A stretch of 64,000 nucleotides of DNA from Halomarina oriensis. GTDB lineage: Archaea > Halobacteriota > Halobacteria > Halobacteriales > Haloarculaceae. Shown here in pieces: positions 46,043 through 64,000 of the stretch (its first letter is position 1; each line of letters starts with the position of its first letter). Where the stretch lies: contig NZ_WSZK01000038.1 of assembly GCF_009791395.1 (NCBI RefSeq), positions 1 through 64,000 on the forward strand, read 5' to 3'. The position numbers and the translations under genes are program-made. Below the pieces are notes generated by a model. That model was not told where the DNA came from. It saw only the letters and a program-made list of their open reading frames with translations, and ran no database searches.

Positions 46043-46145
46043 CAACGAGCACGGAGGGGACTGGTTCGCGTCGATGGCGAAGCCGACGCACCCCGTCCGG
46101 CTCCATGACGAACTCCTCGTGCCGTCGTCGGTTCGTGGACCAGCC

Positions 46146-47168
46146 ATGACCACGACACTCGAACCGATCGAACCGTACCGCGCCGTCGAACTGTACCTCG
46201 GACAACGTGAGACCGAGGTCGCCGCCAGTACACTCCAGACCCATCGCTCCCGCCTGCGCGCGTTCCTGCGCTGGTGCGAACTGGAGGAAATCGGCAATAT
46301 GAACGATCTGACGGGGCGCAAGCTCCACGAGTTCCGCATCTGGCGGCGGAACGATGGCGATCTCAATCGCGTCAGTGAGAAGACGCAGATGCAGACCCTT
46401 CGCGTCTTCATCCGGTGGTGTGAGTCGATCGAGGCCGTTGATGCCGACCTCTCGACGAAGGTCCAGTCACCCAGCCTCGCTACATCTGACGACTCTCGTG
46501 ATGTGATGCTCAGCGCCGACCGAGCGACCGCGGTACTCTCATACCACGAGAAGTACCACTACGCGTCACTCGAACACGTTACCCTCGCACTCCTGTGGCA
46601 CACCATGATGCGCCGGGGGTCTGCTCGCGCGCTCGACGTCGAGGACTACCACACCGATGAGAGGTATCTCGAGGTTGTTCACCGGCCCGACACAGGCACG
46701 CCCCTGAAGAACAAGGCTGATGGCGAGCGTCTGGTCGCACTCTCTGAGCAGATGTGTACGCTACTGGACGACTGGGTCGCCGACCAGCGTCCCAGTGTTG
46801 AAGACGAGCACGGACGTCAACCGTTGTTGGCGACACTGCGTGGTCGTCTTGGCGCGAGTACAATCACTACATACGCGTATCGAGCCACTCGTCCTTGCAT
46901 CTACACTGACGGCTGCCCACATGACCGCGACATCGAGTCCTGTGACGGTACAGATGTTGATCTGGCATCGAAATGTCCCAGCAGTGTCTCTCCCCACGCC
47001 ATGCGGCGAGGGTCGATTACCCACTCGCTGGAAGAGGGTACCCCAGATAAGGTCATCAGTGACCGGGCCAACGTGAGTCAGGGCATCCTCGACAAGCACT
47101 ATGATCGACGAGACGAGCGCACGAAAATGGAACAACGGAGAGACTACCTTGACAGGACTCGAATGTAG
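46146..47168 (+). CDS. Tyrosine recombinase / phage-type integrase
   Basis: 340 aa from the ATG at 46146 (MTTTLEPIEPYRAV). A SAM-like N-terminal DNA-binding domain (residues 5-105: AASTLQTHRSRLRAFLRWCE) is followed by the catalytic domain. Arg I is in HTMMRRGSARALDVEDY, the H-x-x-R box is SPHAMRRGSITHSL and the nucleophile Tyr is in LDKHYDRRDE. A cysteine-bearing insertion (CIYTDGCPHDRDIESCDGTD) in the catalytic domain is common in haloarchaeal integrases. Its position at the composition change marks it as the mobility gene of the island that follows. Confidence 0.93.
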   Translation: MTTTLEPIEPYRAVELYLGQRETEVAASTLQTHRSRLRAFLRWCELEEIGNMNDLTGRKLHEFRIWRRNDGDLNRVSEKTQMQTLRVFIRWCESIEAVDADLSTKVQSPSLATSDDSRDVMLSADRATAVLSYHEKYHYASLEHVTLALLWHTMMRRGSARALDVEDYHTDERYLEVVHRPDTGTPLKNKADGERLVALSEQMCTLLDDWVADQRPSVEDEHGRQPLLATLRGRLGASTITTYAYRATRPCIYTDGCPHDRDIESCDGTDVDLASKCPSSVSPHAMRRGSITHSLEEGTPDKVISDRANVSQGILDKHYDRRDERTKMEQRRDYLDRTRM

Positions 47169-50104: not shown

Positions 50105-52348
50105 TCAGTCATCTGATACGATGCCAGTAGCAGTCCGGTCCCTAGGCGCTAACTCCTGTGTTGCTGCGATGCCCATCACAGGAAGAAGCGCCTTCCCTAG
50201 AACCGTTCCGGCGAGCGGTGGGACGGCGTTCCCAATCTGGCGGAACCAGCTGGTGAATGGTCCGAGGAAGATGTAGTCATCAGGGAAGGATTGCAACCGT
50301 GCCGCCTCCCGTGGGGTAATTCCCCGGTTTCGCTCAGGGTCGGCTTGTTCAGGGGACGGACGGGCATGTTCGTAGAAGTCTGGCAGGATGTACCCGTTCG
50401 CGTCCTTGGCAAGGTGGGCCACAATCGTCGGCGAGGGCTCTGACCAGACGAGTTTGCGGTACTTGTCTCCGAACCGGGGGTTGTCCTCGGTACCAACATC
50501 GTACTCGACGTACTCCGCGTACTCTCCATCCGAGCCAAACACGACGTCCCAGCTCGTCTCACCTGGCTCGAGTGCCTCGTCGAAGAGAATCTGATCCTTC
50601 GCCATGGGATGTTCCCGGGCCTGATGGTTGTAGCAGAGGTCCGTTCCCTCGTGGAGTCCGTTTTCCGTCACAAACTGACTTTTCGAGCCGAGACCTCGTT
50701 CTGCCAGCACCCTCCCGCCCTCGCCCCGTCGCAGACGAGGGAGTCCAGCAAGGCCCTGCTGGAGCGAACGCACCGAGTCCGCCTGTGGCAGTCCATCTAG
50801 GAGCGTACTGACGTCATCCGGCGTGTCTACCAGATCATCTCGAATACCAACGAGCAGGACGCGACTGCGCTCTTGGGGAACACCGAATTCGGTCATGTCC
50901 TTGAGCCGGAAGTCAACTTGGTAGCCTGAGCCGTTCGCACCGAGAGCCTCGAGGTCGTTCATGACCCAGTCGATGACACGCTCGCCCGTGTCGCCTACCT
51001 CGTTGATCATCCCCTCGACGTTCTCCATCACGATCGCCTTCGGTCGAAGCGCATCGACCACCTCGACGTACTGCGTGTAGAGCGTCGTCCGCTCGTCATC
51101 GAGCACCGAGTAGTCGTCGTCTTTGGCTCGCCTGGATCGATATCCAGCCTTCGACAAAGATTGGCAGGGTGGCCCTCCTACAACCAGATCCGGGTCGGTG
51201 ACTGTATCTCGAATCTGGTTGACGAGGTCAATCTCGCGGACATCTCCCTGGACGATGTTGCTATGAGGAATTTCCGGGTGGTTCAGTCGGTACGTGGCGA
51301 CTGCATCAGGATCGATATCAATCGCCCAGCGGATGTCGTACCCAGCACGGGAGAGACCGGTTGATAGACCTCCTGCACCCGCAAACAGATCGACGACAGT
51401 CGGTCCAGTGTGTTCAGTCTCTTGCTGGCGCAGACGATAGCTCAGGAGGAACTTTCGCAGATCGCAGGTATCGCTACAGAGAACGTCCTCTGAGGAGACA
51501 GTGTGTGTGGAAAGAGCCCGAAACAGTGCTGGTACCTGACGGTCGATGAGCTTGTCTTCTAGGTCAGTTCGGCGACCGCTCTCGTCCTCCAGAGCGTCTG
51601 GAGTGAGCAGGCCAAGTTCGCAAAGCAGTCTATCGACATCGGGGTCCGTAGGCCAGACTGGTTTGTCGAATGCAGTCTGAACGAGCCACCAGGCGTCATC
51701 CGTATCGATACCCGGGATAGTGAGAAGGAACTTGACGTACGTCCCATACTGTACGTTGGAGAACCCGCAGAGAGTGACCCCATCCGTGTAGTGTGTCTCT
51801 TCGACCCGTTCGAGTAATTTGGTGATTCGGGAGATTCGCTCGTCACTCACCCCCTTTCGGGGGGTTGCCGCTTCCAGTGCGGTTCGCAGCGCGTCGTGCT
51901 CCATCACGGCAATCTCCTTCCAGGTGCCGACCTGGTCACGGAGTGAGGCAACTGTCTTGCGCGGGGGACGATCGAAGAACCGCTCGGCAGGCGTCAGCCC
52001 ATCGCTGCCCAGTACGACAGCAGCGACTGTATCGAGGGGGTCGTCGCTTCCAATCAGCGGGTCACCACAGTGGCACGCCTCTCCCGACGACTTCCCGGTA
52101 CGCCCGTGCACCGTGTCGTATCGGCAGGCATCACAGTCACCCGACCGGTTCCGTGCAAGTTGCGCAGGAGTTGCCAGGGGGCAGCCCCCTGGTGGCAAGC
52201 GCTGGCGACGAAGGTGTTCCGCAGTCAGGGTATCGATGAGAAATTCCGTGTTGTCGAGGAGGAGTTGCTCGTGCATCTCACGCTCGGCGGGGGGCACGGG
52301 TTCAACCCGCGCCAGAAGAGAACCGCACGACGTGACCGATTCAGGCAT
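50105..52348 (-). CDS. drmMII: C5-cytosine DNA methyltransferase (DrmMII type) with N-terminal Cys cluster and HhH-GPD-like domain
   Basis: 747 aa from the ATG at 52348, which has an unusually strong GGGGGG Shine-Dalgarno-like stretch just before it. The catalytic domain starts near residue 316 with VVDLFAGAGGLSTGLSRAGY. The PCQ nucleophile motif GGPPCQSLSK has Cys395, and IVMENVEGM and QERSRVLLVG follow. The closing motif is QIGNAVPPLAG. The N-terminus is unusual. CDACRYD and ACHCG (Cys72, 75, 92, 94) look zinc-binding. Residues ~170-305 read like an endonuclease III/HhH-GPD unit (FLLTIPGIDTDDAWWLVQTA, WPTDPDVDRLLCELGLL). The catalytic Asp is kept there but the Lys is absent and only two of four cluster cysteines remain. 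In DISARM this enzyme marks host DNA. Confidence 0.9.
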   Translation of the reverse strand: MPESVTSCGSLLARVEPVPPAEREMHEQLLLDNTEFLIDTLTAEHLRRQRLPPGGCPLATPAQLARNRSGDCDACRYDTVHGRTGKSSGEACHCGDPLIGSDDPLDTVAAVVLGSDGLTPAERFFDRPPRKTVASLRDQVGTWKEIAVMEHDALRTALEAATPRKGVSDERISRITKLLERVEETHYTDGVTLCGFSNVQYGTYVKFLLTIPGIDTDDAWWLVQTAFDKPVWPTDPDVDRLLCELGLLTPDALEDESGRRTDLEDKLIDRQVPALFRALSTHTVSSEDVLCSDTCDLRKFLLSYRLRQQETEHTGPTVVDLFAGAGGLSTGLSRAGYDIRWAIDIDPDAVATYRLNHPEIPHSNIVQGDVREIDLVNQIRDTVTDPDLVVGGPPCQSLSKAGYRSRRAKDDDYSVLDDERTTLYTQYVEVVDALRPKAIVMENVEGMINEVGDTGERVIDWVMNDLEALGANGSGYQVDFRLKDMTEFGVPQERSRVLLVGIRDDLVDTPDDVSTLLDGLPQADSVRSLQQGLAGLPRLRRGEGGRVLAERGLGSKSQFVTENGLHEGTDLCYNHQAREHPMAKDQILFDEALEPGETSWDVVFGSDGEYAEYVEYDVGTEDNPRFGDKYRKLVWSEPSPTIVAHLAKDANGYILPDFYEHARPSPEQADPERNRGITPREAARLQSFPDDYIFLGPFTSWFRQIGNAVPPLAGTVLGKALLPVMGIAATQELAPRDRTATGIVSDD

Positions 52349-52525: not shown

Positions 52526-53305
52526 ATGACTTCGACGGATCACCCATTTGGCCGAACTACCACAACGCTCGACGAACTTCACGGGTGTGTCGATGTCACT
52601 GATGCAAAGCGAGTGCTCAATTCCATTGGCGTGGCGAAACCAGACAAGGCCGTAGAAGGATTTCTCGATCAGATGCCCACACTGCTCGCGTGGCTCGATG
52701 AGCACGGCCGGGACTACCCGTGGCGACGAGCGAGCGATCCATGGCAGATCTACGCCAGCGAGATCCTTCTCCAGCGGACACGGAGTGATGCCGTCGCAGA
52801 CATCTACCCGGAGTTCTTCGCACAGTTCCCCTCCGCCCGGTGTCTCCTCGAGGCCGATGAGGAAGACCTCCGCAGCATCGTTCACCCACTTGGATTCGTC
52901 AATCACCGGGTTCGGACACTACGAGAAGCGGCAGAACTCTGCGCAGAAGTTCAGGACGAGGTACCTGCTGATCTCGAAGCCCTTCAGCAACCCTGGCGAG
53001 TGGGTCCGTATACGGCCCGAGCCTGTCTGCTGTTCGCGTTCGACCAGCCGATGGCCCTTGTGGACACGAACACGGCTCGAATCGTGGGCAGAGTATTCGA
53101 TTACCCGCTACCCGAACAACCGCACAAGAGTACACGTGTCCAGCGACTGCTCGATGCGCTCGCACCTGACAACCCTGCGCTGGCGCGGGCTTTCAATCTA
53201 GCGCTGCTCGATCTGGGAGCACTGGTCTGTACCAGTGAGAATCCGAACTGCCCGGCGTGTCCGCTTGCAGAGGGATGTGAGTACGCACAAACGGGAGACG
53301 TCTAA
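52526..53305 (+). CDS. HhH-GPD DNA glycosylase with 4Fe-4S cluster, Mig.MthI-like (T:G mismatch) or MutY-like
   Basis: 259 aa. The order of motifs is that of the MutY/Mig branch: RDYPWRRASDPWQIYASEIL with Glu79, LLQRT, the hairpin WRVGPYTARACLLFAF with Tyr162 in place of the endonuclease III lysine, and MALVDTNTARIV with catalytic Asp180. The cluster cysteines are 235, 242, 245 and 251 (C-x6-C-x2-C-x5-C). It lacks the C-terminal Nudix-like domain by which MutY reads 8-oxoguanine. That, plus its place next to a cytosine methylase, favours the Mig.MthI role: removing T from T:G pairs left when 5-methylcytosine deaminates. Its last four bases overlap the convergent drmC. Confidence 0.85.
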   Translation: MTSTDHPFGRTTTTLDELHGCVDVTDAKRVLNSIGVAKPDKAVEGFLDQMPTLLAWLDEHGRDYPWRRASDPWQIYASEILLQRTRSDAVADIYPEFFAQFPSARCLLEADEEDLRSIVHPLGFVNHRVRTLREAAELCAEVQDEVPADLEALQQPWRVGPYTARACLLFAFDQPMALVDTNTARIVGRVFDYPLPEQPHKSTRVQRLLDALAPDNPALARAFNLALLDLGALVCTSENPNCPACPLAEGCEYAQTGDV

Positions 53306-54246
53306 TCCAGCAACGAGACAGAGGACGCTGCGTCCGATTCGAACAGGAACCACACTAGGTCACGGAAGCTATCGACAGGTGGCCCTTCCAGCAAAATCCC
53401 TGTCTCGAGGTAGTGTTCGAACCCGTAGTCGGTGACATTGGCACTCCCGACGTATGCCTTCGAGTTATCGAAGACGATTACTTTCGAATGGAGGGTGAAC
53501 GCGGGAGTTGCACCACTCTGACGACGTTGTTGCTGAGGGACGTCAGCGTCCCATTGCGTGTAATCTACAAACCTGAGGAGGGCTGGCTCGACATCTCGAT
53601 CCTCCGCTCGTTCGGCGAACGACTTCAGCACGGTACGATTGTAGGAGTCAGAATCCATCAGATACCGAGACACGAACGTCACCTCGACACCACGCTCCAG
53701 TGCAGCGAGGAGGACGTCTTCGAGATGGGAGAACCCATCCGCCTCGAAGAACGGGACAAGGAGCGTGATGGAGTTCTCAGCCTGTTTGATCTCCCGTGTG
53801 AGCGCGGGCATCAGCCACGACATCCCGAACGATGTAGGGTCAACATCACTGAAAGCGGGATCGGCAGGAAACGTCACGAGCGGTGTAGCCGTCGTTGCAG
53901 GGGGCTGGCGGTCCTGGAACGCTCTCACACTCTGGGCCGCGTACCGCGCCTGCTCGAGTGTCTGGCGACAGCGAGAGACATCGACTCGAAAGGTGCTGTC
54001 ATTGATGCCAGTATTGAACGTGTCTCGTTCGATTGCCCCCGCCTCCGTAAGCTGACGAAACAGGTCGCTCGCGGTCTCTACAGATAAATCGGTGTCACGA
54101 GCCACCCCCGCTGGTGTCACGAGGTCGTTACGACCCCCTGCCAGTACGAGCCGTCCCTCGAGTTGCGATAGCAGCTGCTCGTCACGGTCAACGTATTCGG
54201 CGATTGCGAGAGGCGGCCAGGATGGGTTAGATTCGTCGTGAGACAT
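53302..54246 (-). CDS. drmC: DISARM protein DrmC (phospholipase D fold)
   Basis: 314 aa. The N-terminal ~100 residues resemble a winged helix (LVTPAGVARDTDLSVETASD). The phospholipase D domain follows: SITLLVPFFEADGFSHLEDV, VTFVSRYLM, and the HKD motif LHSKVIVFDNSKAYVGSANV (H-x-K-x4-D, then GSAN) near residue 245. Only one HKD is clear. DrmC is the least essential DISARM part in known systems. The 48-base spacing from drmB and common strand put it in the drmABC operon. An alternative is a generic PLD nuclease, but the neighbours fix the call. Confidence 0.88.
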   Translation of the reverse strand: MSHDESNPSWPPLAIAEYVDRDEQLLSQLEGRLVLAGGRNDLVTPAGVARDTDLSVETASDLFRQLTEAGAIERDTFNTGINDSTFRVDVSRCRQTLEQARYAAQSVRAFQDRQPPATTATPLVTFPADPAFSDVDPTSFGMSWLMPALTREIKQAENSITLLVPFFEADGFSHLEDVLLAALERGVEVTFVSRYLMDSDSYNRTVLKSFAERAEDRDVEPALLRFVDYTQWDADVPQQQRRQSGATPAFTLHSKVIVFDNSKAYVGSANVTDYGFEHYLETGILLEGPPVDSFRDLVWFLFESDAASSVSLLD

Positions 54247-54294: not shown

Positions 54295-56253
54295 CTATAG
54301 CGTCCAGTATCCGTCGATATCCTTGTCGGTGTTCGGACGACTTCCGAAGAGGTAGTCCCGGGACAGGACCTGGTTGAAGAACGAGCAACTGATCTCGCTC
54401 ACGTGGAGGCACGAGAGGCAGGCACCACCCCGCTGTGAGCACACCGGGTCGTAGACACACTCGTTCCCGTGCGACTCGGCCTGCCCGAGGAGGTTGTCGA
54501 GTTGCTGTTCGACCATCGTGTGCATCCCGCCGATGTTGAACTCCTCGCGGTTGTTCGCGTAGATGACGACCGAGAGCGCTCGCGGAAAGAGGAACTCACT
54601 GAGGTTCGTCCGGTCGAACCCGCTGATTGTGCTGGCCTGCTTCAGCAGGATGTGACTCAGAGTGTGGACGAGTTTGAATACGTACTCGGTCACCAGTTCT
54701 TCGACGGAGTCGTCGAGGTCCGTCTGGAAGCGCCCGTACCGTTCGACGGGCGCGAGGTGGTTGAGCAGGAATGCCCACTGTTCCTCGGTGGTGAGTGCGT
54801 CGATCTCGGAGCGTGCATAGTCGATTGCTGCATCGTCACGACCCGTAATCTCGGGCAACGTGATGTCACCGTTGACCGCGCCTAGATCGCTGGTCTCCGG
54901 AATGTTGAGTGCCAGCCAGAGGAGCACACGCGCCGGGTCGAGATCGAACTGCACAGCCTCGGTCTCGGAGGTATCGACGAAGATGGGTGTCCCGTCCCCA
55001 TCGCTGGCGCTCTGTGAGAACGCAGTGATCTGAGCCTCGTCCTCCTCCCGCCCACCACGCGTGTACCCATACACGAACGTCTGAACGGGGAAATCCTCGA
55101 TGACCCGGACATCGTCGAAACCGAGATGGTCGAGGTCGTCGCGGTAGCTGCTAATCCGGTCGGCCTTGTCGCTGAAGCCACGCCCACGCGCTGCCGATTC
55201 GAGTTCGGGAAGCGTCTCGGTGGTCAGGGACTCCCGGCTGAGGACGTACTGAAGAATCTCGTCACCGGCCTCTGTAAGCTCGGACCCCTCGCCATCCGCG
55301 TCGAGCACGAGCAGCTGACCGAGGCGCTCGTTCGCTGTCTGGCTTCCCAGGTTGCCCTGTTCACGGAGGTAATCTCGGGCGGCATCGAGCGTCGTGATGT
55401 CGTCGTGCGTTGAGTAGACCTCGACGACCTTCTCGTCGTCCATCTCGACCTCGCCGATTCGCTGATTCAGGTTGACGTCCTCGATGCGCTGGGCGTCGGT
55501 CAGTCCAAACAGCCTGGCGATGGCCTTCTTCGCGCCATCAGTGGAGTCACGGAGGTGACCGATCCCTGCCGTATGCAGGTTGACGGTGGAGATGTAGTGC
55601 GGGTAGTAGACACTCCCGGCACGGTGGACCGTCGTGTACATCCCGTCGTTCTCGTCACCCGCGGGTGGGATGTAGTCACAGCCGCAATTCTGGTAATTCC
55701 GAATCGGTGTCTCCCACGAGCAGCCACCAACACGGCAACTCCAGTGGAAGTTGCGCACGCGCTGGCTGTCGCGCCGGTCGAGAACGACGTGCTCGTCACC
55801 GTGAGTCGGACACTTCTGAGGGTACAGTCGCCGGAGTTCCCCGCAGGTGTGAACGCTGACGAACTGGTACTGCTCAAGGTTACCGTCGCAGCCACTTCGC
55901 CGACAGGTCAGACCCGGGTTCTTGTTCTGAACGTCGTCCGCGGTGTAGTACCCGTGGACCTTCTCACACTTGCTGCACTCGTAGGTTGTCGGAAACGGTT
56001 CTGCACGGACCCCTTCGGGGACACCGAAGTGGTAGTGGTCCGTGTTTCTCGAGACGAACCCGTTCTGGCCACCCTCCCAGTTACGAACCCGGGCGAGGAC
56101 GCGCTTCAGGATATACTCCTTGCTGACAGTGCCGCTGGCGTCGCTCGTCTCTAACCGCGTCGTCTTCCAGATACCACGCTGGCCGCTGTAGTCGAATGTG
56201 TTCTCGGGCAGGAACTGGTAGAGTACCTGCGACTTGCTTCGTTCCATTGACAT
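54295..56253 (-). CDS. drmB: DISARM protein DrmB (DUF1998)
   Basis: 652 aa from the ATG at 56253, two bases after the drmA stop, so coupled to it. N-terminal cysteine pairs (YECSKCEKVHGYY, LTCRRSGCDG, CGELRR, KCPTHG) make zinc modules near residues 90-160. The C-terminal DUF1998 domain shows HTMVEQQLDNLL, then the Cys pattern CVYDPVC, GGACLSCLHVSEISC and FFNQVLSRDYLFG. In DISARM, DrmB forms a complex with DrmA that loads on incoming DNA. The open frame upstream of 56253 overlaps drmA and is not used. Confidence 0.93.
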   Translation of the reverse strand: MSMERSKSQVLYQFLPENTFDYSGQRGIWKTTRLETSDASGTVSKEYILKRVLARVRNWEGGQNGFVSRNTDHYHFGVPEGVRAEPFPTTYECSKCEKVHGYYTADDVQNKNPGLTCRRSGCDGNLEQYQFVSVHTCGELRRLYPQKCPTHGDEHVVLDRRDSQRVRNFHWSCRVGGCSWETPIRNYQNCGCDYIPPAGDENDGMYTTVHRAGSVYYPHYISTVNLHTAGIGHLRDSTDGAKKAIARLFGLTDAQRIEDVNLNQRIGEVEMDDEKVVEVYSTHDDITTLDAARDYLREQGNLGSQTANERLGQLLVLDADGEGSELTEAGDEILQYVLSRESLTTETLPELESAARGRGFSDKADRISSYRDDLDHLGFDDVRVIEDFPVQTFVYGYTRGGREEDEAQITAFSQSASDGDGTPIFVDTSETEAVQFDLDPARVLLWLALNIPETSDLGAVNGDITLPEITGRDDAAIDYARSEIDALTTEEQWAFLLNHLAPVERYGRFQTDLDDSVEELVTEYVFKLVHTLSHILLKQASTISGFDRTNLSEFLFPRALSVVIYANNREEFNIGGMHTMVEQQLDNLLGQAESHGNECVYDPVCSQRGGACLSCLHVSEISCSFFNQVLSRDYLFGSRPNTDKDIDGYWTL

Positions 56254-56255
56254 TG

Positions 56256-59200
56256 TTATCGGTTGTTGTAGGTTTCGAGGATGTCGTTGTACTTCCACTC
56301 GGGCTGAATCGGGAGCTGTGCATCGACGTCGCGCAGGCTGCGCATCGCAGACTGTGGCAGGCGGTCGCTGGTCCACTGGCGATCGCTCAACTGAACCTCC
56401 GAGACCGACAGCTCCGTGAGTTCCATTGTGTCCACCCGGAACTCCTCGGGCAACTGGTCGCCTCCGTACATGTTGACGAGGATGTCTTCGATCTCGCTGT
56501 CGTCAACCGTCGCCAGGAAGTCCTCGGCCTGGTTTCCGAAGAACAGCCGACCGGCGTCCTCCGAGTACATGTAGTGGTTGAGCAACAGAGACATGAACAG
56601 TCCCGGATGGGTGCGCTTGACGCTGTTTTTCGCCCAGCGGTTCACCGACACCGGTTCGACCAGCCGGTCGAGGAACTGGTGGTACTTCTCGAAGAAGTGG
56701 TAGTGACTCAGGTCCCGTTCACGGATGGGGTGGAGGACGTTGAACACCAGGCCGGGGTGCGAGCGACCTGCCCGCGAACTGGACTGAATGTACTCCGCGG
56801 TTGCGCGTGGCATCCCGAAGAAGACCATCATGTTGAACCGGTCAACGTCCACGCCGTGGCTGATCATGCTGGTCGCAGTTACGGCGTTGGGTCGGTAGGC
56901 TAGCAGCCAGGCAAGCCCCTCACGGACCTCGGGGGAGGCTGCCCGCATCGCCACGCGGAACTCCTGTCTCGGCGAACGATCCGGGTCAAGTTCCGCGGCC
57001 AGCAGGTCACGGAGCTCGGTGACCTCCGGTATGATATCCTCGTCGAGGACGTCGTCATCGCCGAGTTCTCGGAGCAGCTGTTCGTCCGCGTCCTCCTGCC
57101 ACGGGTCGTCCAGTCGGTCGAGAATCGTCTGGACCTTCTCAAAGGGCGTCCCGCCCGTCATCCGCTCAGAGTTGAGCGGTGGGCGGCCCTCGCCGCGGAG
57201 GTAGGCGTTAAGCTGGCTGACGAACGACTGATCGAGACGGTCGCCGTCCTTCTTCGACAGCAGGTAGGTCAGACTCGTGCTGTAGAGCGTAAGGCTGTCG
57301 ATGACCTCGGCGATCGAGTCCGCCGCCAGCGGTTCGGTCGTGTCGGTCCCCTCGAGCGCGACACCTGTCAGAAGGTCCTCTGGCGATTCCATTGCCAGAT
57401 GCAGGAGGTCCTGTACCTCCTCGTGGAACGTGAACAGGATGTCGATGATCGAATTGATGTGGGTCTTCCCGTGTGGGATGAGCCCCAGGTAGTAGCGCTG
57501 GGTCTCTGGCTGTTCCTTCGCGTAGAAGTTCTCGCGCAGGTACGGCCCCGGAGACGGGAACCGTTCAGCCGGGCGCAGGAACAGGTGGTAGACCTGGTCC
57601 TCGTACGCGGTGATGGTTGCGGTTGGCGCGAGAATCTTCGTCTTCCCGGCGTCCACGAGTTCCTGAAGCGTCTGTACACCGGTCTCGTAGTGACCGTCGA
57701 AACTGCCAACGCTCTCCTCGAGCAGGTGCAGTTCGTCGGGGACCATCAGCGAGGGCGCGGGGTCGTAGACGTCGATTGGCGACGCCATGAGCTCGAACTC
57801 GTCCCGGTCGATGTCACAGCCGTACTTCTCGGTACACTCGCCGAGGCTGGCGAACCCGTGCCGTGGACACTCATACTCCATCTCGCCGGTGAGGATGTGG
57901 GCCATCTTCCGCTGGTAGCCAACGGCGGTGATCTTGTCGATGGTTCCGGCGAGGATGCTCGGTGCGTAGCGGTAGAGTTCGTTGTCGACGACGTGGATCG
58001 GGAGTTCGTCCTCCGCGTACACCTCGTTGATGTCGGTCTCGCGCTGTTGCCACGCGCACTCGAAGGGGTTCCCCTGGCAGGCATGAGCGAGACGATGGTT
58101 GTCGGTGACCTGCATCTCTACCCGGGACCCGCAGACCGGACAGCTCGGGACGACCTTCGCGTCCTCGCGGAGGCTTGCGTCCTGCTTGTAGCGACTGTAG
58201 TTGTCGTTGTTGTAGCCGGTGAGAGCGTTTGGTGTGTTCTTCTTGCCGACGAGGAAGCCGACGCTGAACGGACGGGACGGACGGCTCCCGATGTCGGGTT
58301 GTTCACGCCGGACGAGGTCCGCGTACATGATGGTCTCCGACATCCGCTGGAGTTGCTGGAGAGACAGCAACCGGAGCGGGAACCGCGTCCACGTGGTGAC
58401 GCCGAAGTGCTTCCCGCGGATGCGGTCGAAGAACATGTTCCAGATGGCGACCCCGAAGAACGCCTCCGATTTCCCACCACCAGTGGGGAACCAGAGGACA
58501 TCGACCACCTCGAGCGCTCCCTCTGCGTTCTCGAAGCGCTCGCCGAGTGACTCCTCGTCGCGCCAGCTGATCTCGTCCCACTCGTCATATTCCCGGCCCG
58601 CGATGTCGGGGACGAGCATAACGATGAACACCAGTTGGAACAGTCGCCACGTATCGAAGTCGTGCATCCGGTCCATCGACTCGTTCATCAACTCGAACGC
58701 GCGACCAACGTCGTCCGGGTGTTCGTGGAGGACTCGGATGCCGCGCCGGAAGCGCGCGATTTCCCGCTCAAACGCCTCGCGGTCTTCATCGAAGTCCTCA
58801 CGATCAGCCTCCGTCCAGTCCTCGCGCTTCTGGTATTCGCTAAGCGCTGCGGGGTAGGCCGTTTCGAGGTAGTCGTCCATCGCGTCGGCGACAGTATCGA
58901 GGACCTCGTACCCACCTCCCTGGAGGTCTGCGAGTTCACTGAACGCCGGATTCACACCACGGTCGGCTGACTCGTAGACGAGCTGGCGGTACTCGGGGAT
59001 GAACTCTGTGCGGAGGTGACTGGTGTGCGGGTTGGCACGAGGAGCCGAACGCCCCGGCGTTTTCCCCGCACCCGTCGTCTCCTCGTAGTCGGGAGCGTTG
59101 ATGGTGCAGTTCCGGCCGTGCCCCCACAGGTCCCGGTTGTACCGGAAGTCCTCGGGGAGGGGGTCGAAGGTGAACGGGACGAACTCGAGGGAGCCCTCTG

Positions 59201-60068
59201 TCTGGAACTCGAGTTCCACCTCGAACAGCGTCGGGTCGCGGATGGTGTAGACGTGGTCCCGCTTCGTCTGCTCGCCGGTGTTCGTCACCTCGATGTCCAG
59301 TAGCAGTTCGCCGTTCTGGCTCTCGCGGTCCTCGGTGGTCGTCACCTGAAGGTCCATGTCCCATTCGGGCAGTGCTGGCGTCCCCTCTCGATCATTGAGG
59401 TACTCGGTGTACGCTGTCTCGCTCTCGAGGGCGTGGGCGGGAACGTCGTCGTCAGGCTTCTCCTCACCGTTGTCGAGGTAGATGTCGCCCCGGGCTGCCG
59501 CCTGCTGACGCGCGTTTTCGACGGCGTCACTGATCGCCTCGGTGGCACGGTCACGGATGGCCTGTGGCGTGTTGCGGGTCGCCTCGGCGATCTCCTCGAA
59601 CGGGATCTCGATGGAGGGGACGTCGAGTTCGAGACGCTCGAAGACGGGAAGGAGGTTCGTCTTGGCAGTCTCAGCATCCTCCCGGTCGGCGAGTGAGATG
59701 TAGTCGTCGCGCTGGTCCATCTCCTCGAAGGTTGGGTTGACCCGCACCCAGACGCTCGCCGAGATGTCGATGGTCAGCACATCACTTTCCGAACCGTTCC
59801 GGACGCGGGTCATGGTCCCGAGCGCGTACGGCTCCATCTTCGACTGGAGGTCGTCGTCGTCACTGCCCTCGACCCTGTCCGCGTCGTGGGCTGCGAGCGC
59901 ACCAGCGAAGAACCGGTCGCTTGGGAAGTCGCGCTTCACCCGATGGGGTTCGTCGTCGGTGTCGAGATTCCCGCTGACGCGGTCTGTGATTCGCTTTCGC
60001 AGGTGGCGAGCGATGCGTTCTTCGTCGCCGGGAGGGTCGGCCCCCGAGCCAGATAGTTCACCTGACAT
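56256..60068 (-). CDS. drmA: DISARM protein DrmA (large SF2 helicase)
   Basis: 1270 aa. Helicase motifs in order: Walker A VLWFPTGGGKSEAFFG (about residue 530), Walker B in MVPDELHLLEE (about 770), motif III-like ILAPTATITAYEDQ, and motif VI in SSSRAGRSHPG (about 1,095), preceded by SHGVDVDRFNMMVFFGMPRA. Cysteine pairs (VPSCPVCGSRV and others) sit inside the helicase core, as is usual for the family. The first ~500 residues are the DrmA-specific region. It is first in the drmABC operon and divergent from the adenine methylase gene. Confidence 0.94.
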   Translation of the reverse strand: MSGELSGSGADPPGDEERIARHLRKRITDRVSGNLDTDDEPHRVKRDFPSDRFFAGALAAHDADRVEGSDDDDLQSKMEPYALGTMTRVRNGSESDVLTIDISASVWVRVNPTFEEMDQRDDYISLADREDAETAKTNLLPVFERLELDVPSIEIPFEEIAEATRNTPQAIRDRATEAISDAVENARQQAAARGDIYLDNGEEKPDDDVPAHALESETAYTEYLNDREGTPALPEWDMDLQVTTTEDRESQNGELLLDIEVTNTGEQTKRDHVYTIRDPTLFEVELEFQTEGSLEFVPFTFDPLPEDFRYNRDLWGHGRNCTINAPDYEETTGAGKTPGRSAPRANPHTSHLRTEFIPEYRQLVYESADRGVNPAFSELADLQGGGYEVLDTVADAMDDYLETAYPAALSEYQKREDWTEADREDFDEDREAFEREIARFRRGIRVLHEHPDDVGRAFELMNESMDRMHDFDTWRLFQLVFIVMLVPDIAGREYDEWDEISWRDEESLGERFENAEGALEVVDVLWFPTGGGKSEAFFGVAIWNMFFDRIRGKHFGVTTWTRFPLRLLSLQQLQRMSETIMYADLVRREQPDIGSRPSRPFSVGFLVGKKNTPNALTGYNNDNYSRYKQDASLREDAKVVPSCPVCGSRVEMQVTDNHRLAHACQGNPFECAWQQRETDINEVYAEDELPIHVVDNELYRYAPSILAGTIDKITAVGYQRKMAHILTGEMEYECPRHGFASLGECTEKYGCDIDRDEFELMASPIDVYDPAPSLMVPDELHLLEESVGSFDGHYETGVQTLQELVDAGKTKILAPTATITAYEDQVYHLFLRPAERFPSPGPYLRENFYAKEQPETQRYYLGLIPHGKTHINSIIDILFTFHEEVQDLLHLAMESPEDLLTGVALEGTDTTEPLAADSIAEVIDSLTLYSTSLTYLLSKKDGDRLDQSFVSQLNAYLRGEGRPPLNSERMTGGTPFEKVQTILDRLDDPWQEDADEQLLRELGDDDVLDEDIIPEVTELRDLLAAELDPDRSPRQEFRVAMRAASPEVREGLAWLLAYRPNAVTATSMISHGVDVDRFNMMVFFGMPRATAEYIQSSSRAGRSHPGLVFNVLHPIRERDLSHYHFFEKYHQFLDRLVEPVSVNRWAKNSVKRTHPGLFMSLLLNHYMYSEDAGRLFFGNQAEDFLATVDDSEIEDILVNMYGGDQLPEEFRVDTMELTELSVSEVQLSDRQWTSDRLPQSAMRSLRDVDAQLPIQPEWKYNDILETYNNR

Positions 60069-60227: not shown

Positions 60228-60313
60228 GTACATCTCAACTATTATATGTCAGTGGTGTCGCTGGTTGAATATCCACCAGGGGCGCTGCTCCGGTGTCTCC
60301 TGATCCACCACAC

Positions 60314-63300
60314 ATGTCGGAACAATCTCGTCCATACCGCACGAACCGCGATCTCTTCTCCAACCACTACCTCACGAACCACCTGCGCCAGACCGAGCCC
60401 TGGCAGAGTGTTGACGATGAGGAAGTCCGAGAGGCCTACGACGAGATTCGAACGCTCTGGGAGGACAGAGAGGGCCGTGTTGACGACTACAACGAGGCAC
60501 AGCTGGAGCGGAACTTCATCCGACTCATATTCGACCTTCTCAACATCCCGTTCGAGATTGAGGAGACGGTCATGCGGAACGCTCGCCGTCCGGACTACGG
60601 GTTCTTCCCGAGTGCTGACGCAGCGGACGCGGCCTTCGACCGTGACGACTTCTACGAGGAAGCGATTGCTGTCGCCGACGCCAAGCGCTGGGGACGCAAG
60701 CTCGACACTCGTGGTGAGGAGAAGCGCGACTTCGAGAACCCGAGCTACCAGATTCACGCCTACCTCCAAGAGACCCCCGTGCAGTGGGCCGTCCTGACCA
60801 ACGGTGAACACTGGCGACTCTACTACGGGCCGACCAGCCACCGACTGGACTCCTACTACGAGATCGATCTCCCCGAAATCCTCCGATACGTCGAGGAAGA
60901 GGGCAATCTGAAGGACTTCAAGGACTTCTACCTGTTCTTCCAGCAGGAGGCGTTTCTTCCTGACCAGTCGGGAGACTGCTTCCTCGACGACGTCTACGAC
61001 GAGTCGAGCGTCTTCGCGGAGGCAATCGGTGAGGACCTCCAAGAGAACATCTACGAGGCCATCCGTGTTCTGGCCGAAGGGTTCCTCGACACGAACGACG
61101 ACCTCGACGAGGACGACCTGCCGTTAATCCACGACAGTTCGCTCATCTACCTGTACCGTCTCATTTTCGTCCTCTACGCGGAGAGTGAAGGACGTGACCT
61201 CCTGCCCACAGAGAACGAGATCTACAGTGCAAGCTACAGTCTGAATGACCTGAAACAGACGGTCACTGACAAGCGTAAAGCAACACAGCAGCACTACCAG
61301 ACCTGGCAGACCAACCTGTGGGACCGCCTCGAGGAACTGTTCGTCCTCATCGACCAAGGGAGCCAGGGAATGGACATTCCGAAGGACCAACTCTACGTTC
61401 CCGCGTACAATGGTGGGCTCTTCCGAACCAATCCCGGCCCGGACGATAGTCAAGAGGCCCTGTTCCTCGCGTCCCACGAGGCTGACGACGCCCACCTCGC
61501 AGAAGTCATCGAACTCCTCACCCGCCGAGATGCAGACGAGGGCGATGGTCAGGTCTTCGTGGATTACTCCTCGCTCGACGAACGCCACCTCGGGTCGATT
61601 TACGAGGGGCTGCTCGAGTACAGAATTGACGTTGCCGATGAACCACTGACAGTTGAGGACGGCGAGTACTCACCCGCCGTAGACGATGACGAAGTTGTTG
61701 TTCCGGAAGGCGACGTATTCCTCCGTACGGACGATGGTGAGCGGAAGACCACAGGGTCGTACTACACACCCGAGTACGTTGTCGAGTACATCGTCGATGA
61801 AACGCTCGGCCCACTCGTTGACGATATTCGGTCGGACCTCGTCTCCGAAAGTGCCGACACGACCCACGAGCGCGAGGGCTTTGCCGGGGAGTTCGCGGAC
61901 CGTGTGTTCGACCTGAAGGTTCTCGACCCTGCGATGGGGAGTGGACACTTCCTCGTGAACGCAGTAGACTATCTCGCCCGGGAGATCATCGACGCCCAAG
62001 AGAGGCAGGATTACCAGGCCGTCGAGTCCGGAGATGAGGACGCAATTAGCGACCCGACCACCGAAGATGGCGAGTTACGGGACATCAACTGGGCACGCCG
62101 AAAAGTTGCCCAACAGTGTCTTTACGGAGTGGACGTGAATCCGCTTGCTACGGAGCTGGCAAAGGTGTCGTTGTGGCTGCGGACACTTGCTGCCGAGCAA
62201 CCACTGGCGTTCCTTGATCACCACCTCAAGACGGGCAACTCTCTCATCGGCAGTGACATTGAGGACGTTCTGAGCGCCGAGAACCAAGGGACTGGTCAGA
62301 CCCAGCTCACCGACTGGATGGAGCAAGCTCGCCAACGTGCGCTTGAACACGTTATGGAGCGCTTCACCGATCTTCTCTCCATCGACAACGAGACGCTGGA
62401 AGATATCAAAGAGATGGAAGAAGTCTACGAGGAAGTACGTAGTGACGCACTCTACCAGCACCTCCTTGCTATGGCAAATGTATACACCGCCGCTGAGTTC
62501 GGTCTCTTGGTCCCCGACGACGCTGAAAAGCAGATGGCAGAGGCCCTCCGTGACGATTCTTGGTCTGATATTGAGAATAAGAGTTGGTTCCAAGAAGCAC
62601 AAACGATGGCTGAAAAGAATTCCTTCTTCCACTGGGAACTGGAGTTCCCTGTTGCGTTCTATGGAGAAGGAGGGGAGCGGGTAACAGACGCTGGGTTTGA
62701 TGCGGTTATCGGGAACCCACCATACGTCCGAATGGAGGAATTCAAATCTGCAAAGACCTACTTAGAGATAGAGTACACAACACATGCTGCGCGAACTGAT
62801 TTGTACGTGTACTTTATTGAGCAGTCACTAGATGTTCTTCGTAGCCAAGGAGAGTATGGGTCAATAGTTTCAAATAAATTTATAAGGGCCAATTATGGAC
62901 GCACTATACGAAAAATCCTTGGTGAGTCAACAAATGTCCGAGAGATCGTTGATTTTGGGGGATTGCCTGTTTTCCCCGACGCGACGGTCCGATCATCGAT
63001 ACTGTTGACCCAAAAGACGAGCCCAACTCCTCACCCCCTCCGATACACTGCAATCGAATCCCTCTCATTCAGTTCGTTACCAGAGGCGGTTGAAGAGTTT
63101 GGTGTGGATGTCGATGCAACCAATATTCAGGACGATGAATGGAGGCTTGTCAGTAAGTCCATATCGAACTTGATGGAGAAGATAGAGACAGATGGTATCC
63201 AATTAGCTCGGTTTGAAGGTGGTACGCAGGTATGCCGTGGCATTGTGACTGGTCGGAACGAAGCATTCTTTATTGATGAATCGGAGCGACAGTCGCTCAT

Positions 63301-64000
63301 TGAGTCTGACTCAAAGAGTGAAGAAGTCATTCACCCACTTGTGCGAGGTGAGGACATTCGGCCATATCACATTGGGTCCACTGAGTCCCACATCATATAT
63401 CTAACAGAAGAGACAAACATCGACCGGTATCCTGCCGTCGAGGAACACCTCGAAGAGTACAGAAAAGGTCTAGAAAGTCGCGCCACTGAGCAGAGGTGGT
63501 TCGAGTTACAGCAACCACAAGAGGCGTACATTGAATTTTTCGAGGGGAGCAAAATCCTCTATCCAGAGATTGCTCCTGAGACGCGATTCGCCTACGACAA
63601 GGGTCCGCTTTATCCAAACAACAAGTGTTTCTTCATTCCGACAGACGACCAATATCTTGTAGCTGTGCTGAACAGTTCTCTGTCCCTCTTCTACCTCCAG
63701 CAAGTCGTCGCCAAGCTGGAAGGGTCGTCGTCGGACAGCCTCTACTACGAATTCAGATCACAGTATATGGAAAAATTCCCAGTGCCCAACACAGAAAAGG
63801 ACGATGGCGAACTCGCAGCCTTGGCTGATGAAATGAGCCAACTTTCGGACAGGCGAGCGTCTCTCAATCTCAACCTGCTCGATTATCTTGGCAACTACTC
63901 TGAGGGCGCAAATCTGCCGAATATTGGGATATTCCAGCCAGCGTCAGTAAATATTCTTGAAGAGACCACAGAGGAGTACGAGAAGCTCCAAGTGGGGAAC
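60314..64000 (+). CDS. drmMI: N6-adenine DNA methylase of DrmMI / type IIG (Eco57I-like) kind, C-terminus outside window
   Basis: 1,229 codons are present and the frame is still open at the window end. Residues 60-130 carry a nuclease-like pattern: RRPDYGFF (Pro93-Asp94) then VADAKRW (Asp122-x-Lys124), a PD-(D/E)xK arrangement. The methylase core has motif I VLDPAMGSGHFLVNAV (about residue 538), QCLYGVDVNPLATELAKVSL, and motif IV VIGNPPYVRMEEF (about residue 800). A target-recognition region follows, visibly AT-richer from about 62,550 to 63,650. Divergent from drmA, it fits DrmMI, the adenine methylase of class 1 DISARM. Similar proteins are also type IIG restriction-modification enzymes, so cutting cannot be ruled out. 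Confidence 0.88.
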   Translation, partial: MSEQSRPYRTNRDLFSNHYLTNHLRQTEPWQSVDDEEVREAYDEIRTLWEDREGRVDDYNEAQLERNFIRLIFDLLNIPFEIEETVMRNARRPDYGFFPSADAADAAFDRDDFYEEAIAVADAKRWGRKLDTRGEEKRDFENPSYQIHAYLQETPVQWAVLTNGEHWRLYYGPTSHRLDSYYEIDLPEILRYVEEEGNLKDFKDFYLFFQQEAFLPDQSGDCFLDDVYDESSVFAEAIGEDLQENIYEAIRVLAEGFLDTNDDLDEDDLPLIHDSSLIYLYRLIFVLYAESEGRDLLPTENEIYSASYSLNDLKQTVTDKRKATQQHYQTWQTNLWDRLEELFVLIDQGSQGMDIPKDQLYVPAYNGGLFRTNPGPDDSQEALFLASHEADDAHLAEVIELLTRRDADEGDGQVFVDYSSLDERHLGSIYEGLLEYRIDVADEPLTVEDGEYSPAVDDDEVVVPEGDVFLRTDDGERKTTGSYYTPEYVVEYIVDETLGPLVDDIRSDLVSESADTTHEREGFAGEFADRVFDLKVLDPAMGSGHFLVNAVDYLAREIIDAQERQDYQAVESGDEDAISDPTTEDGELRDINWARRKVAQQCLYGVDVNPLATELAKVSLWLRTLAAEQPLAFLDHHLKTGNSLIGSDIEDVLSAENQGTGQTQLTDWMEQARQRALEHVMERFTDLLSIDNETLEDIKEMEEVYEEVRSDALYQHLLAMANVYTAAEFGLLVPDDAEKQMAEALRDDSWSDIENKSWFQEAQTMAEKNSFFHWELEFPVAFYGEGGERVTDAGFDAVIGNPPYVRMEEFKSAKTYLEIEYTTHAARTDLYVYFIEQSLDVLRSQGEYGSIVSNKFIRANYGRTIRKILGESTNVREIVDFGGLPVFPDATVRSSILLTQKTSPTPHPLRYTAIESLSFSSLPEAVEEFGVDVDATNIQDDEWRLVSKSISNLMEKIETDGIQLARFEGGTQVCRGIVTGRNEAFFIDESERQSLIESDSKSEEVIHPLVRGEDIRPYHIGSTESHIIYLTEETNIDRYPAVEEHLEEYRKGLESRATEQRWFELQQPQEAYIEFFEGSKILYPEIAPETRFAYDKGPLYPNNKCFFIPTDDQYLVAVLNSSLSLFYLQQVVAKLEGSSSDSLYYEFRSQYMEKFPVPNTEKDDGELAALADEMSQLSDRRASLNLNLLDYLGNYSEGANLPNIGIFQPASVNILEETTEEYEKLQVGN

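Follow-up and report, generated by a model that had tools for sequence, protein, structure and literature searches.

The 64,000-nucleotide window of Halomarina oriensis DNA analysed here encodes a C5-cytosine DNA methylase whose catalytic core begins only at residue 317, and the question it raises is what the preceding residues are and what they could do for an enzyme that writes 5mC. The enzymes that write 5mC are as a rule distinct from the glycosylases that remove or repair 5mC or its deamination product, and companion repair enzymes of the MIG and Vsr types are known for C5 methylases, beside which they travel. In the methylase clade described here, a glycosylase fold has apparently been absorbed, disarmed and kept under selection, often with a separate working mismatch glycosylase in the adjoining gene. 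The methylase gene has the following features.

50105 to 52348, minus strand: C5-cytosine DNA methylase with a predicted N-terminal degenerate HhH-GPD domain, 747 aa, read from an ATG at 52348 to a stop at 50105
51419 to 52348, minus strand: N-terminal region, residues 1–310, modelled alone with AlphaFold2; HhH-GPD fold aligned over residues 21–302
52049 to 52207, minus strand: insert, residues 48–100, after the first helices and ahead of the helix that starts with DDPLDTVAAVVL
51671 to 51727, minus strand: helix-hairpin-helix segment, residues 208–226 (LLTIPGIDTDDAWWLVQTA), from EndoIII alignments
51644 to 51646, minus strand: D235, aligned to the EndoIII catalytic Asp (VDTH) by profile alignment
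51464 to 51478, minus strand: C291-x3-C295, at the place of the EndoIII C-x6-C-x2-C-x5-C cluster loop
50186 to 51400, minus strand: C5-methylase catalytic core, residues 317–721 (PF00145, E = 5.3e-57)

Predicted fold of the N-terminal region

The C-terminal part of the protein is a C5-cytosine DNA methylase, as judged by its PF00145 core and the PPCQ, ENV, QxRxR and SAM motifs. We observed DLFAGAGG, PPCQ, ENVEG, QERSR and GNAV, and the catalytic residues and motifs are invariant in all 20 relatives. Pfam gives no match within the first 310 residues, and its HhH-GPD entry, PF00730, leaves this protein unmatched and matches a single relative of the 20 weakly (E = 0.004). The NCBIfam entry NF053634 (monofunctional DNA glycosylase DR2438), on the other hand, matches 20 of 20 relatives, at best with E = 6e-8, and this protein with E = 2.4e-4.

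As a fold search with the full-length model gave mainly matches to the C-terminal methylase part, residues 1–310 were modelled alone, yielding an AlphaFold2 model with a mean pLDDT of 82.8 and a pTM of 0.84. The top Foldseek match for this model is endonuclease III (E = 2.9e-5), the best query-normalised TM-scores being moderate, at 0.42–0.44. VIA placed Deinococcus EndoIII-3 first, with a Z of 14.0 and an rmsd of 4.3 over 212 residues (model residues 21–302), and gave a Z of 13.2 for ROS1 bound to 5mC DNA and of 11.5 for MIG. All of the 50 matches listed in each of the two fold searches are HhH-GPD proteins, among them endonuclease III, ROS1, MIG, MutY, OGG1, MagIII, AlkA, Mag1 and Mag2. Profile comparisons point the same way: the N-terminal profile finds Deinococcus radiodurans endonuclease III in the PDB (E = 1.8e-5) and Nth-like ORFs in haloarchaeal genomes (down to E = 3.6e-11 per genome), and in hhalign it aligns with haloarchaeal Nth-like proteins at 97.7% (E = 2.4e-12), compared with a maximum of 3.8% for 60 column-shuffled controls. 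With a helical fold, a hairpin and an Asp loop, the region belongs to the HhH-GPD superfamily, and the model and profiles together predict that residues about 20–302 adopt the endonuclease III-type fold.

A first-pass annotation of this DNA had proposed an HhH-GPD-like domain ahead of the methylase core, and the fold searches, profiles and shuffle control bear this out. The motifs it singled out lie where it put them (PGIDTDDAWW at residues 212–221, WPTDPDVD at 232–239 and CSDTC at 291–295). Its span of about residues 170–305 falls in the right region and is too short, the domain being larger. Endonuclease III, MutY and MIG, the relatives it had anticipated, are among the matches listed for the predicted structure, which contains the HhH barrel and did not draw matches confined to unrelated helical domains.

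Loss of catalytic features and the cysteine insert

The six-helix HhH-GPD fold over residues 21–302 resembles that of the endonuclease III/Nth proteins (D. radiodurans EndoIII-1, EndoIII-3 and the DR2438 family), and the HhH and Asp loop are collinear with those of these enzymes. The N-terminal domain differs from them in that it has no lyase Lys and no C-x6-C-x2-C-x5-C motif, its Asp is not invariant, and it carries a Cys4 insert and is fused to a methylase. The position of the EndoIII lyase Lys corresponds to residue 217, which is D in this protein, varies among D, Q, G, N, A, S, E, R, T and H, and is Lys in none of the 20 relatives. The position of the catalytic Asp is occupied by D235 here and by Asp in 17 of 20 relatives; the other three have G, N or S, with the remainder of the domain conserved. 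The canonical C-x6-C-x2-C-x5-C 4Fe-4S motif is absent from the N-terminal domain of all 20 relatives. Of the residual pair, C291 and C295, both members are lost in two relatives (loci L017 and L020) and one in a third (L019). The missing Lys and the reduced Cys set, both noted in the first-pass annotation for this protein, are thus features of the whole family, the C-x3-C pair being all that is left of the cluster motif and not universal.

That annotation overlooked four further conserved cysteines, which lie in the insert at residues 48–100. C56, C75 and C94 are present in 20 of 20 relatives and C92 in 19 of 20, and this pattern suggests that the four residues may form a metal site. Elsewhere in the domain, conservation is high around the HhH and the Asp loop (Y201, P212, W220, W221, K229, P230, W232 and P233).

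Distribution of the fusion and its genomic setting

The genomes that contain the N-terminal domain are the same 20, of 391 Halobacteria genomes, as those that contain this methylase clade, and we found the domain on no other methylase in these 391 genomes. Beyond the clade, the score of the next-best methylases falls from 460 to 141 bits, and their ORFs are about 400–500 aa long. Since the domain is present in all 20 clade members, the fusion looks ancestral to this haloarchaeal clade and was never lost within it in our sample. The domain is under purifying selection, with a dN/dS over residues 101–305 of 0.08–0.15 in six closer pairs, compared with 0.05–0.14 for the methylase core. Outside the Halobacteria, no such fusion was found in 392 genomes of the phylum, in phages or in viral contigs; a plasmid collection yielded three records with the fusion, all haloarchaeal. 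A scan of contigs with a pattern in which the methylase motif VDLFAGAGG carried most of the weight returned four loci only. A remnant of the methylase clade with two in-frame stops lies at G334:C2:55033-55332 (L092). In one plasmid, CP002989.1 of the halophilic archaeon DL31 (L108, 14001–14942), the methylase start given in the public annotation (14445) falls within the domain, and a hypothetical gene is placed on the opposite strand across the N-terminal part of the methylase, a likely mis-annotation by which the domain is hidden.

The genes beyond the methylase are listed below.

52526 to 53305, plus strand: free-standing monofunctional HhH-GPD glycosylase of the MIG/MutY type, head-to-head with the methylase
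53302 to 54246, minus strand: DrmC-like PLD nuclease
54295 to 56376, minus strand: DrmB
56256 to 60068, minus strand: DrmA helicase
60293 to 64000, plus strand, continuing beyond the end of the window: DrmMI-like adenine methylase, whole gene read in locus L070

Bravo et al. 2022 (PMC9142583) describe DISARM as having the methylases DrmMI and DrmMII and a methylation-sensitive DrmAB. The fused methylase has the gene neighbours expected of DrmMII, DrmC, DrmB and DrmA being the next genes on its strand. Of 19 other loci, 16 have a DrmA match no more than about 10 kb away, and 2 of the 20 loci have no drmA, drmB or drmC match within that distance; most fused-methylase loci are antiviral DISARM islands. 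PADLOC scores the protein at 234 bits with DrmMII and at 267 bits with a generic Type II methylase model, so the DISARM label rests on gene context. Like DrmMII, the protein has a C5 methylase core beside drmA, drmB and drmC; unlike it, it carries an additional 310-residue domain and shares its locus with a second, plain C5 methylase. Past the window, the contig continues (L070) with a BrxHII/DrmD-like helicase and, directly downstream of it, this second methylase (L070 7434–8789; contig C32 about 67433–68788). Similar second C5 methylases stand beside the fused one at L055, L056, L058, L059 and L060. The defence island is possibly bracketed by an integrase-like gene at 46074–47168 of the window, which matches Pfam Phage_integrase, and an ORF of similar appearance that lies about 31 kb beyond it (L070 17711–18895).

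The free-standing glycosylase has MIG (1kea, T:G mismatch glycosylase) as its best solved relative (E = 2.5e-47), an intact FeS motif (C235-x6-C242-x2-C245-x5-C251), a Tyr at the lyase-Lys position and the Asp, and with these features it is a member of the MIG type. MIG, the T:G glycosylase of a methanogen, belongs to the same superfamily as the fused domain and shares its setting beside a C5 methylase; it differs in being intact and free-standing, and alignment of the fused domain to the MIG-like neighbour is poor (hhalign 1.6%). This poor alignment and the separate grouping of the two in the tree led us to reject a derivation of the fused domain from its neighbour; the exact parent lineage is not fixed by the tree, which has a very long branch.

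In 391 genomes, the clade of the neighbouring glycosylase comprises 18 full-length proteins. Of these, 17 adjoin a C5 methylase, which is fused in eight cases and in nine is of a plain kind without the N-terminal domain. Counted by genome, nine of 18 co-occur with a fused methylase (Fisher p = 1.2e-8, an optimistic value given that the genomes are related). Beside the fused methylase, the free glycosylase has decayed to a remnant at two loci, L047 and L057, and is split at a third, L046; the fused domain is intact in all three. The free enzyme thus looks like a guard of C5 methylases in general, whether or not they carry the fused domain. Because its clade adjoins plain and fused methylases alike, it does not explain the fused domain, and this equal pairing also led us to reject the idea that it exists to serve that domain.

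Role of the N-terminal domain

With its catalytic features lost and its hairpin and Asp-loop region kept, the simplest role for the domain is that of a DNA-binding or scanning module. We therefore consider it probable that it is a pseudo-glycosylase kept as a non-catalytic DNA-binding module of a DISARM-associated C5 methylase and fused to it once, ancestrally. An endonuclease III-type domain would have joined a C5 methylase a single time, in the ancestor of the haloarchaeal clade, and then have lost the features of base excision and strand incision, namely the lyase Lys and the canonical 4Fe-4S motif, with the catalytic Asp becoming losable. The fold and its inserted Cys4 element would hold, bend or scan DNA beside the active site of the methylase, so as to raise its affinity or processivity or to help it select context, and the repair of deaminated 5mC (T:G) would be left to the head-to-head MIG-type glycosylase. 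It counts against this role that the methylase retains a target-recognition region of its own (residues about 505–675), so that the domain should be dispensable for basic site choice.

DNA binding by an HhH-GPD protein without excision has a precedent in Schizosaccharomyces pombe Mag2, a glycosylase homologue that is reported to bind and sculpt abasic DNA. Mag2 has the same fold (Z about 10), and differs in being AlkA-type, free-standing and eukaryotic. The plant 5mC glycosylases ROS1 and DME also share the fold (Z = 13.2 for 5mC-bound ROS1); ROS1 erases 5mC, whereas the present fold, without the Lys, is attached to a 5mC writer. We think it unlikely that the domain still flips and inspects bases and so gates the methylase, as a reader fused to a 5mC writer; DISARM marking would then respond to mismatches, damage or existing modification in the DNA.

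The first-pass annotation knew of no DISARM methylase with this layout, and the literature searched, whose coverage is incomplete, agrees: it contains no description of an Nth-type pseudo-glycosylase joined to a C5 methylase, the DISARM label itself coming from gene context. Searches by term in Bravo et al. 2022 (PMC9142583), a 2025 survey of the YprA family (PMC12458937) and a 2026 BREX survey (PMC12839542) gave no glycosylase. With the fusion, DISARM methylation gains a domain; how such methylation contributes to self-recognition is understood only in part. Because the domain forms a discrete unit and sister methylases of the plain kind are available for comparison, its role is directly testable.

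Instead of DNA, the domain may face a protein partner, serving as a docking platform through which the methylase is tied to DISARM proteins or to the glycosylase next to it. The DISARM setting of most loci would suit such a platform, as would the many invariant residues that are non-catalytic, including E22, R130, E264, R270, R277 and R305. We regard this as improbable, given that the free glycosylase is not an obligate partner, being often missing beside the fusion, that two loci are without nearby drm matches, and that few parts of the domain are as well conserved as the HhH and the Asp loop.

Less likely still is an active monofunctional glycosylase, acting at methylated sites, for instance on T:G or on a damaged base, and giving the writer built-in proofreading. 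An Asp at the catalytic position here and in most relatives, the family-wide match to an entry named for a monofunctional DNA glycosylase and the presence of ROS1, a 5mC glycosylase, among the best structural matches are consistent with activity, and MIG and MutY likewise do without the lyase Lys. The replacement of the Asp in three relatives whose domain is otherwise conserved, the loss of the FeS motif and a dedicated MIG-type enzyme in the adjoining gene argue against it.

A chance arrangement of helices with HhH-like motifs and no glycosylase ancestry, as the near-silence of Pfam and the moderate TM-scores might suggest, is refuted by the fold searches with HhH-GPD proteins throughout, by independent profiles that align the same motifs (E = 1e-5 to 1e-12) and by the failure of the shuffles, and we consider it extremely improbable.
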